DNA of 64,000 nucleotides from Ostreibacterium oceani (GTDB taxonomy: Bacteria > Pseudomonadota > Gammaproteobacteria > Cardiobacteriales > Ostreibacteriaceae). Below, one piece after another: positions 50,833 through 53,538 of the stretch. The stretch lies in the NCBI RefSeq assembly GCF_009362845.1, contig NZ_WHNW01000006.1:1-64000 (forward strand). The letters are read 5' to 3'. The position numbers and the translations under genes were made by a program. The first letter of the stretch is position 1. Each line of letters starts with the position of its first letter. The notes beneath the pieces were generated by a model, which saw only the letters and a list, made by a program, of their open reading frames with translations, was not told the DNA's origin and searched no databases.

Positions 50833-51213
50833 TTAGCTGCCTAAATCCAAAATGGCTTCCATTTCGACTTCTGCGCCCTTGGGGATGCCAGCCACTTGCA
50901 CGGCGGCACGCGCGGGATACGGGGCGGTGAAATACTGTGCCATGATGTCATTGAGTATCGCGAAATTGCCGAGATCCATCACAAAAATATTGACCTTAAT
51001 TACTTGGTCCATGGTGCCTCCTGCGGCTTCGACGACGGCTTTGAGGTTTTGAAATACTTGGTGAGTTTGTGCTTCAAATCCTTCTTTTAGTGTCATGGTC
51101 TCTGGGTCTAGTGGGATTTGGCCTGATAAAAAAACTAAATTTCCTGTGCGCACAGCCTGTGAATAAGTGCCAACAGCAGCGGGGGCATTAGTGGTTTCTA
51201 TGATTTGTTTCAT
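50833..51213 (-). CDS. ridA: 2-iminobutanoate/2-iminopropanoate deaminase RidA
   Basis: Hydrolyses reactive enamine/imine intermediates from PLP enzymes. The 126-residue YjgF-fold protein shows [28 protein letters not shown] (in part), the catalytic arginine in [20 protein letters not shown], and the C-terminal glutamate. GAGGAT lies just before the ATG. Its position right after spoT is the standard gammaproteobacterial arrangement. Confidence 0.96.
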
Positions 51214-51230: not shown

Positions 51231-51275
51231 GTGGTTAGGGTGTAGGTTAGTGGTTAGGGTGTAGGTTAGTGGTTA
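51231..51275. repeat. two and a half copies of a 19-bp unit spanning the spoT stop codon
   Basis: GTGGTTAGGGTGTAGGTTA occurs at 51231-51249 and 51250-51268, followed by seven bases of a third copy. The spoT stop codon (51247-51249 on the minus strand) lies inside the repeat. Confidence 0.9.
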
Positions 51276-53262
51276 AGTCAGTAGATTCGTGTAATGACGG
51301 CTGGCTTTTATGGGTTAATTTTTTTACCAACGGTAACGCACTCAGCTGAAACATAATATGCTCTAGCTGCACCAGCGATTGTACTTTGATGATAAAGGTC
51401 ATGCTAACTTCTGCACGCTGCATATCATTGGGTAGCTCAACGCTCACGATATTGGCGGCGCATTGGCCAAAGACGTCAGCGACTGAGGCGAGCGCGCCAG
51501 GTTGGTTGAATACCTGCGCGGTGATTGTCGTGGTTAGCCCGTCTTGGTCGAGAAGGTGTTGCAAATCGTTTAAGGTTTGTTTTTTGCCGACTTCATCGAG
51601 CGCGATTTTTCGCAGGAGTGCTTTGCGCTTAATGCCGCGCTTTTTGGCGACTAATTTGAGTAACGCTTTTAGGTTAGCGTAGGTAAAGCCGCGCTGAGCC
51701 AAGTATCTTTCTAATTCACTGTGCCCGAGTTTCTCTAAGTCTGATTCAGGTAGGCTATTAAAATAATGCCTGATGGCTACCCGTGCGCGTGCGGTTTTGA
51801 CGACCTGTAGCCAGCGACAATCTGGGTGTGCTGCAGCTTGGGTGAGGACTTCGACGGTTTGTCCATTGTTTAGCGTAAACGTTAAATCAACGTCAATGCC
51901 ATTGACCTTGGCGGCGCTCAGGTGGTTGCCTAAATCGGTATGAATGTGATAAGCAAAATCAATGACCGTCGCGCCAACAGGCAAGGCGATGGGCTCGCCT
52001 TTGGGGGTAAATACTTGGATGTCGTAGCCCGTTAAATCGCGTTTGATGGCCTCGTAATAATCCAATGAACCCGACGTATAATTACGCAAGTCTTTGAGAT
52101 TAACCAACCAGCGACGAATGGATTTGTCTCGTGGTGGTTGGTTGGTGTTGGGTTGCTTTGCAGTGATTTTTTCTTGGTTATGCTGTCGCCAAATGGCAAT
52201 GATGCCAGACTCAGCAATGGCATGCATGGCTTTGGTGCGGATTTGAAAGTTAATGACCCGACGGTCTTTGGTCAGTGCCGAGGTATGAATAGATTGATAG
52301 CCATTGGCTTTGGGTGAGGCAATGTAATCAGTGAGTTTTTTAAAAACAGGGGGGTAGATTTGATGAATGATACCGAGTACACGGTAACAGTCGTCGATAT
52401 TTTCGGTTAAGATAATAAACGGAATACTCGCGTTTTCTAGCGGTCGTCTTGTGAACCGACTTTTCTGTAGTTTTTTATAGATATTGAGCAAGTTTCGCCG
52501 TCTTTTACGGACAGAGGCAGCAAGATTAGCGAGTTTAAATTGTTGTTGCAGGGTTTGAATGACTTGGTTGGCTGTGTTTTCCCTAGTTTCGTTGTCGGTG
52601 AGTAGTTTGCAAATGGTATTATAACGCCATGGATTAACGTGCTTAAAGGCGAGTTCTTCCATCTCAGTTTTAAAAACATACATCCCCAAACGAGTGGCAA
52701 TAGGGACATAAACATCCAGTGTTTCTTGGGCAATGCGTGCGCGTTTTTTGCTGGGTAGTGCGTCCAGCGTTTGCATATTGTGTAGTCGGTCAGCAAATTT
52801 AATCATCACAACACGCGGGTCGGCTTCCATTGCGCTGACGAGTTTTTCAAAGGTTTGTGCTTGTAGCACTTGTGGTGAAATTGATTCGTTTTTTTCAAGC
52901 TTACTGACGCCATCAACCAGCGCGGCGACTTCTTCGCTAAAATGTTGAATTAACGTTTTTTTGCTGATGGGTGTGTCTTCGATGACATCGTGCAAGATAG
53001 CAGCCTGTAAAACCGCGATATCGAATTGCACTTCGCTGGCGAGGATTTCTGCTACTTTGATAGGGTGGCAAATGTAGGGCTCGCCAGAGTGACGTGTTTG
53101 GGTTTTATGCGCTGTGGCCGCAAAAAAGCAGCAATCGATGAGTTGCTGCTGCTGGTCTGCGTCAAGATAGTCGCTCTGCGCAATGAGCTGAGTAATGCTT
53201 GTCGTGATGGCGTCTAATCCATCGAGATCAGGGTCATAAAATAGGGCATCACGGTAGCGCAT
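51247..53262 (-). CDS. spoT: RelA/SpoT family protein, probably hydrolase-only SpoT
   Basis: Controls (p)ppGpp. The HD hydrolase domain is intact: H66 in YICHPIKVAEIL, H91-D92 with E95-D96 in HDVIEDTP, and KFADRLHNMQTL (155-166). TGS (about 412-475) and C-terminal ACT domains are also present. The synthetase domain is recognisable (CYRVLGIIHQIYPP, DYIASPKANGYQSIHTS) but altered at both catalytic acids. The E-x-Q-I-R-T motif reads N338-F-Q-I-R-T, and the D-I-x-A-x-R strand reads A278-S-I-P-F-I. These correspond to E323 and D264 of Streptococcus Rel. Synthesis is therefore probably lost. Length is 671 residues. It is preceded by rpoZ and followed by ridA. Confidence 0.95.
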   Translation of the reverse strand: MRYRDALFYDPDLDGLDAITTSITQLIAQSDYLDADQQQQLIDCCFFAATAHKTQTRHSGEPYICHPIKVAEILASEVQFDIAVLQAAILHDVIEDTPISKKTLIQHFSEEVAALVDGVSKLEKNESISPQVLQAQTFEKLVSAMEADPRVVMIKFADRLHNMQTLDALPSKKRARIAQETLDVYVPIATRLGMYVFKTEMEELAFKHVNPWRYNTICKLLTDNETRENTANQVIQTLQQQFKLANLAASVRKRRRNLLNIYKKLQKSRFTRRPLENASIPFIILTENIDDCYRVLGIIHQIYPPVFKKLTDYIASPKANGYQSIHTSALTKDRRVINFQIRTKAMHAIAESGIIAIWRQHNQEKITAKQPNTNQPPRDKSIRRWLVNLKDLRNYTSGSLDYYEAIKRDLTGYDIQVFTPKGEPIALPVGATVIDFAYHIHTDLGNHLSAAKVNGIDVDLTFTLNNGQTVEVLTQAAAHPDCRWLQVVKTARARVAIRHYFNSLPESDLEKLGHSELERYLAQRGFTYANLKALLKLVAKKRGIKRKALLRKIALDEVGKKQTLNDLQHLLDQDGLTTTITAQVFNQPGALASVADVFGQCAANIVSVELPNDMQRAEVSMTFIIKVQSLVQLEHIMFQLSALPLVKKLTHKSQPSLHESTDLTTNLHPNH

Positions 53263-53310: not shown

Positions 53311-53538
53311 TTAGAATAATTCCTCAAGATGGTCTGCTTGGTTTAAGATTTCATCGACTGTTTTTTTACCTTCGGCAATTTCGCGTAGCGCGATTACCGT
53401 TGGTTTGTCTTTGTCCTCTGGTACCAACGATTGTCCACCTTTGTTGATTTGGTGAGCGCGCTTGGATGCCGCTAAAATGATTCTAAAACGATTGTCAGTA
53501 GGGGACTGTAAGCAGTCTTCGATTGTAATTCGTGCCAT
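53311..53538 (-). CDS. rpoZ: RNA polymerase omega subunit
   Basis: Small subunit (75 residues) that helps assemble RNA polymerase. [20 protein letters not shown] and [19 protein letters not shown] are characteristic, with [12 protein letters not shown]-like [15 protein letters not shown] near the end. GAGGAAAAT precedes the ATG. It is the first gene of the rpoZ-spoT-ridA run; gmk, usually upstream, is missing. Confidence 0.96.

Follow-up and report, generated by a model that had tools for sequence, protein, structure and literature searches.

The spoT locus and its genome

The window, by which we mean the whole 64,000-nucleotide stretch of DNA analysed, carries a spoT gene with an uninterrupted reading frame (Table 1). 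Pfam orders the domains of its product as HD, RelA_SpoT, TGS and ACT, as for beta- and gammaproteobacterial SpoT, and both this layout and the position of the gene after the presumed rpoZ are those of E. coli SpoT[HS]. The genome amounts to 2.18 Mb in 36 contigs and is estimated to be 100% complete, with contamination of 0.01.

Table 1. Features of the spoT locus, in window coordinates
Feature	Position	Strand	Basis
spoT, long RSH of 671 aa, putatively hydrolase-competent with a pseudo-synthetase	51247..53262	-	ORF and Pfam
HD (hydrolase) domain, Pfam HD_4, residues 46-194	52681..53127	-	Pfam
Synthetase-like domain, Pfam RelA_SpoT, residues 254-363, judged dead by its residues	52174..52503	-	
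Codons of E276, N277 and A278, candidates for the Asp place (E. coli D259)	52429..52437	-	
Codon of N338, the Glu place (E. coli E319)	52249..52251	-	
Guanosine-binding G-loop N320-G-Y-Q-S-I-H326, kept	52285..52305	-	
TGS domain, residues 415-474	51841..52020	-	Pfam
Junction of about 22 residues (555-576) from the helical region to ACT, zinc-finger domain missing	51535..51600	-	
ACT/RRM domain, Pfam ACT_4, residues 577-648	51319..51534	-	Pfam
ORF directly upstream of spoT, which we take to be rpoZ (RNA polymerase omega; named by eye)	53311..53538	-	
ORF downstream of spoT, presumably RidA-like (named by eye)	50833..51213	-	

In our collection the window genome is the only member of its family (f1), and its order comprises 32 genomes in four families. 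The SpoT of one f4 genome (L024) is 100% identical to that of Candidatus Ignatzschineria merdigallinarum (L192), and NCBI places the Ignatzschineriaceae in the Cardiobacteriales; we therefore identify the order as Cardiobacteriales. By elimination, f1 would be Ostreibacteriaceae and f3 Cardiobacteriaceae. Membership of the window genome in the Moraxellaceae was considered and rejected on the family and order searches and on the Ignatzschineria match, its order being the one that includes Ignatzschineria.

Catalytic residues of the synthetase domain

The original prediction held that A278 and N338 replace the catalytic Asp and Glu of the synthetase. Residues 278 and 338 are Ala and Asn, and for the Glu the assignment is secure: N338 falls on E319 of E. 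coli SpoT in all 18 MAFFT alignments (six sequence sets, each in three modes), none of which puts another acid there. Judged from the sequence, the catalytic Glu has without doubt been lost. The place of the Asp (E. coli D259) is harder to fix, since A278, N277 and E276 each take it in some alignment. Counting back without gaps from the D-C-Y motif gives A278, as predicted. N277 occupies the position in 9 of the 18 alignments. A profile built from 80 intact SpoTs puts N277 there too, as do alignments to the structures 6yxa, 8fr8 (presumably mycobacterial RelA) and 7oiw. The assignment to A278 is therefore uncertain. The acidic E276 is found there in six alignments, all made with f3 or with f3 and f4 relatives alone; the remaining three, made with E. 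coli alone, give L275 (two) or a gap (one). The linker between helix and strand has one residue more than its E. coli counterpart, and placing E276 at the Asp position thus needs two indels relative to that protein. We conclude that the catalytic Asp has probably been lost as well. Both acids are invariant in the SpoTs of strongly matching gammaproteobacterial genomes (80 of 80 loci) and in f4, the Ignatzschineria family (17 of 17), so the changes in the window protein are not chance. An excerpt of PMC6085430 reports that E319Q alone abolishes the synthetase of E. coli SpoT and leaves ppGpp decay unchanged; for this reason the hydrolase-only reading is independent of the Asp.

Around the catalytic residues the pocket is altered in part. 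Ile283 stands at the second pocket Arg (R264 in E. coli) and an Arg at K238, and the protein still has R254, Y322, Q340 and the N-G-Y-Q-S-I-H loop. An AlphaFold2 model has a mean pLDDT of 87.4, with the synthetase-like fold predicted mostly with confidence, although values drop to about 72 near the Asp place (residues 271-280). The N-terminal half of the model superimposes on pppGpp-bound S. aureus Rel (7oiw) with a Z score of 36.3 and an rmsd of 1.8 over 322 residues. The whole model gives a TM score of 0.43-0.44 and an rmsd of about 27 against 7qpr, the crystal structure of A. baumannii SpoT, so that the compact tau state of that protein is no more than a possibility for the window SpoT.

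Hydrolase site and zinc-finger domain

The HD residues had been predicted to be intact, and all seven that we checked are present: H66, H91, D92, E95, D96, D158 and N162, equivalent to H48, H72, D73, E76, D77, D139 and N143 of E. coli SpoT. We found no zinc-finger domain (ZFD) in the window protein: the CC..H..C motif is absent and there is no room for it between the helical region and ACT. The motif is kept in all 11 full-length f3 relatives. The protein also lacks a match to PF19296, which is weak evidence, as two f3 relatives (L010 and L016) lack it too, yet keep the motif. Of 194 long rows, the motif search flagged 10, including the window protein, as well as one partial row; by eye, a ZFD-like stretch is visible in eight of the other nine and in the partial row, and in a short flagged row (L096) only the second half of a ZFD could be seen in the part inspected. 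Among long named rows it flagged 4 of 76, counted by motif alone. An A. baumannii SpoT deprived of both ZFD and RRM hydrolyses fivefold less and still supports growth (PMC9974481, in part), so loss of the ZFD is tolerable; unlike that deletion, the window SpoT retains its ACT/RRM domain.

RelA as the second alarmone enzyme

If the window SpoT makes no (p)ppGpp, it was predicted, another synthetase must do so. A Pfam search of the genome finds exactly two proteins with a RelA_SpoT domain and two with HD_4. The second protein, encoded elsewhere in the genome, is a RelA of 703 residues whose synthetase Asp and Glu are intact and whose hydrolase site is destroyed; the HD site is thus intact in SpoT and not in RelA. 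By the RelA_SpoT and HD_4 models, the genome has neither a small synthetase nor a small hydrolase. The other synthetase expected from the original prediction is, then, present as RelA, and no small alarmone synthetase accompanies it by the RelA_SpoT model. One f3 genome (G002) has a third match beside its SpoT and RelA (C1:931583-931924; L050), which covers the synthetase domain alone at 31% identity within a 401-aa frame and could be a small synthetase or a toxin-like RSH.

Relatives within the Cardiobacteriales

The SpoTs of f3, the neighbouring family, are changed at both catalytic positions. The Glu is replaced by Asn in 11 of 11 covered proteins, and the Asp column is non-acidic in the same 11 (eight Arg and one each of Lys, Gln and His); a twelfth (L035) has Arg at the Asp column and ends before the Glu. 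Loss of the Asp reads clearly from the f3 alignment. The single genome of f2 has a very divergent SpoT in which the Glu is replaced by Asp and the D is kept in one alignment. A further scan, with an alignment as the query, supplied the best 80 named loci, and none of those listed is titled Cardiobacteriaceae; a scan of the same kind with the window protein as the single query gave no match.

The rest of the pocket is largely preserved in f3. Equivalents of R236, R264, N301, G302, Y303, S305 and R323 (E. coli numbering) are kept in all 11 proteins, H307 and Q321 in nine, and K238 is Arg in all. Since the acids are lost and most of the remainder is kept, the domain fits a retained non-catalytic role. 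We compared its pace of change with that of the HD domain by pairwise distances, leaving out very similar pairs and bearing in mind that pairs are not independent. The median synthetase/HD ratio is 1.10 for f3 (10 of 11 rows, 45 pairs), 1.00 for other, active gammaproteobacterial SpoTs (3160 pairs), 1.31 for f4 (12 of 17 rows, 48 pairs), and 1.47 (6) and 1.73 (15) for two groups with changed acids described below, f61 and f30 with L225. The f3 synthetase domain changes roughly as fast as its active counterparts. At the codon level, a close f3 pair (L016/L017) gives a dN of 0.000 at a dS of 0.31 in the pseudo-synthetase, and a second pair (L008/L015) an omega of 0.13 there against 0.07 in HD; the three remaining pairs are saturated in both domains.

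SpoTs outside the order

A search with E. coli SpoT found a match in 374 of 377 genomes outside the order. We compared SpoTs with an intact HD site and both synthetase positions covered, from 129 genomes of 106 families: 114 keep both acids and 15 are changed, a count that excludes three HD-intact rows in which the synthetase is only partly covered and every row whose HD site is not intact. It is not an unbiased frequency, as 48 genomes were picked mostly for a weak match to E. coli SpoT, and 80 loci from the strongest matches and added members of f30, f28 and f86 were also taken. RelA-type rows with coverage all keep both acids.

In five genera of f30 (L266-L270) the Asp is changed in every SpoT, to Gln, Lys, Asn, Ser and, once, Glu, and two of the five also lack the Glu; each of these genomes has a RelA with both acids. 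The SpoT of a Thiotrichaceae MAG (L225) has Asn for the Asp and groups with f30, and together they are probably a further clade of hydrolase-only SpoT. Five SpoTs from one genus of f28 (L271-L275) all keep the Asp, with the Glu changed to His and a pocket Arg to Cys; an identification of f28 as Francisella is unsupported by RpoB, since the chain 6wmp, which we take to be Francisella, scores well below other chains. The catalytic residues are changed in all four SpoTs of f61 (L086, L088, L090 and L092), with Glu for the Asp in two, and the pockets are degraded; RelA keeps both acids in all three genomes from which it was fetched. These SpoTs are placed weakly beside that of A. baumannii in the tree. 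We rejected f61 as Moraxellaceae, as 7qpr is a poorer match than 8fr8 for all three of its SpoTs that we compared, and no tree row exceeds 40% identity with A. baumannii SpoT; RpoB matches gave no family name for f61. In f87 one of two SpoTs has Asp for the Glu.

Both acids are present in 78 of the best 80 named SpoTs, the exceptions being L225 and L208, a betaproteobacterial SpoT from an Ottowia sp. MAG with His at the catalytic Glu. L069 and L091 are likewise SpoTs with a changed D or E. Two further observations concern genomes with unusual matches. The 1.5-Mb genome G230 has eight separate short matches to the HD part of SpoT alone; their frames measure 199-271 aa and may encode a set of small alarmone hydrolases or other HD proteins related to them. 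In G368, a 1.1-Mb genome rated 100% complete, a SpoT-like stretch (C6:23256-24527) is full of stops and is apparently a decayed RSH gene.

Discussion

We suggest, with a probability of about 0.84, that the window gene encodes a SpoT able to hydrolyse (p)ppGpp and unable to make it, a reading that bears out the hydrolase-only enzyme originally predicted. The synthetase domain would be a folded pseudo-enzyme from which the catalytic Glu has gone and the Mg-binding Asp has probably gone; because of these losses, activation of the 3′-OH and transfer of pyrophosphate should be impossible. The domain may have been kept because it serves the hydrolase structurally and in its regulation, as in A. baumannii SpoT. 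RelA would be the sole recognised synthetase and has a dead hydrolase site, so that synthesis and breakdown would be fully split between two proteins. In this genome a lost Glu, a probably lost Asp, a kept HD site and a RelA with a dead hydrolase occur together, as they should for SpoT[Hs].

The distribution is most plainly read as a single loss in an ancestor shared by f1 and f3, and we infer that this loss arose within the Cardiobacteriales by vertical descent. In a SpoT tree from which the catalytic columns were omitted, the window protein and seven f3 rows form a group with a support of 99, adjoined by five f4 rows at 81. An RpoB tree rejects neither a clade of f1, f3 and f4 (p 0.542) nor one of f1 and f3 (p 0.675), although it contains a wrong-frame row (G124, branch length 10) and, when free, lets G124, G070 and G106 fall among the order. 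We considered whether the hydrolase-only SpoT of f1 and f3 instead shares one origin, by horizontal transfer, with other synthetase-dead SpoTs such as those of the Moraxellaceae. Such a clade is compatible with the AU tests: f1 and f3 with f61 gave p-AU 0.727 in the first tree, where this arrangement has the higher likelihood by 9.94 log units, and 0.41 in the cleaner tree, and f1 and f3 with A. baumannii SpoT gave p 0.195, or 0.169 once f61 was added. However, the cleaner tree sets f1 and f3 beside the intact f4 of their own order, RpoB is compatible with the three families as one clade, and A. baumannii SpoT is both distant from every tree row (identity 40% or less) and different in its pocket substitutions. 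A transferred spoT or long-branch effects may lie behind the gene-tree results, in which long branches are involved. On taxonomy and the intact f4 we consider the loss likely to be independent of that in the Moraxellaceae, while the gene trees allow one origin; transfer from a common source seems to us improbable.

A little less probable again is that the window SpoT is still a weak synthetase, using E276 as a displaced acid for the Asp and dispensing with the Glu. The preserved G-loop, R254 and Q340 would suit such an enzyme, as would the six of 18 alignments that set E276 on the Asp column. Against this, the Asn that replaces the Glu is shared with every covered f3 relative, f3 has Arg, Lys, Gln or His in the Asp column, E276 reaches that column only if two indels are allowed against the E. 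coli sequence, I283 stands where the second pocket Arg should be, and the single change E319Q is enough to kill the E. coli enzyme (PMC6085430, in part). That the changes stem from faulty sequencing or assembly, or that the gene is a pseudogene in decay, is scarcely credible: the family is represented by a single genome and the zinc finger is missing, but the frame is unbroken, the HD residues are all intact, each of the 11 covered f3 relatives also has Asn for Glu, and the genome is estimated to be complete and almost free of contamination.

A hydrolase-only SpoT thus remains our preferred reading, and it has an experimental precedent in the SpoT[Hs] of A. baumannii (PMC9974481; PMC12742793, both in part). 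Such proteins have been known from the Moraxellaceae since 2011, according to an excerpt of PMC3153485, and part of PMC9974481 describes an A. baumannii SpoT that has lost residues critical to the synthetase, makes no (p)ppGpp, does not bind GDP, and hydrolyses actively. The window protein resembles it (7QPR) in being a long RSH beside an intact RelA, in its intact hydrolase site, and in having lost catalytic residues of the synthetase, here the Glu and probably the Asp, and kept the fold, here as predicted by the model. It differs in coming from another order, in having no ZFD and in its pocket. In our alignment A. baumannii SpoT has K, N, H and E at E. coli R236, K238, D259 and R264, and N, S, T and Q at Y303, E319, Q321 and R323, and so is without the guanosine Tyr and the pocket Arg and Gln; the window protein keeps R254, Y322 and Q340, f3 keeps most of the pocket, and the window SpoT, with I283 for the second Arg, does not have a GDP pocket ruined as in A. 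baumannii. A. baumannii further possesses a SAH together with a putative SAS that seems to be inactive (PMC12742793, in part), neither of which the window genome has by the RelA_SpoT and HD_4 models. Compared with E. coli SpoT[HS], which has D259, E319 and a ZFD, the window SpoT is without the Glu, has probably lost the Asp and lacks the ZFD. As for SAHs and Mesh1, its output is expected to be hydrolysis only, and its HD fold matches 3nr1 (Z 16.3), but SAHs are single-domain proteins and this is a long multidomain RSH.

In the literature searched, which covered few subscription papers, we found no report of a hydrolase-only SpoT in the Cardiobacteriales; the parts of PMC3153485 and PMC9974481 covered name neither this order nor Dichelobacter, and their supplementary trees and tables may hold such species. 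What is new here is the probable occurrence of this type outside the Moraxellaceae, in the Cardiobacteriales, and the preserved pseudo-synthetase domain of f3.

The preserved pocket invites a speculation that we rate as unlikely, if worth stating: the dead synthetase domain of the Cardiobacteriales might be a guanine-nucleotide sensor, in which GDP, GTP or (p)ppGpp would tune the hydrolase without turnover. The residue at the Asp position, mostly Arg and also Lys, His or Gln, could replace the lost Mg ion; the Glu would have given way to Asn, as in the covered f3 proteins, with most of the pocket held under strong purifying selection. The window SpoT would be a partial example of such a sensor, having lost the second pocket Arg and the zinc finger. 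Were the idea true, this would be a SpoT[Hs] type distinct from that of A. baumannii, with (p)ppGpp breakdown switched by a pseudo-active site, and the conserved dead pocket of f3 offers a clean test case for nucleotide sensing by pseudo-synthetases.

In the papers covered, the hydrolase-only SpoT is described as a peculiarity of the Moraxellaceae; here it is predicted for two families of another order. To annotate a protein as 'bifunctional SpoT' can therefore mislead, and in such bacteria the loss of relA alone is expected to leave no (p)ppGpp. With these two families, and signs in several more, RelA and SpoT may on repeated occasions have come to divide (p)ppGpp synthesis and breakdown completely between them.
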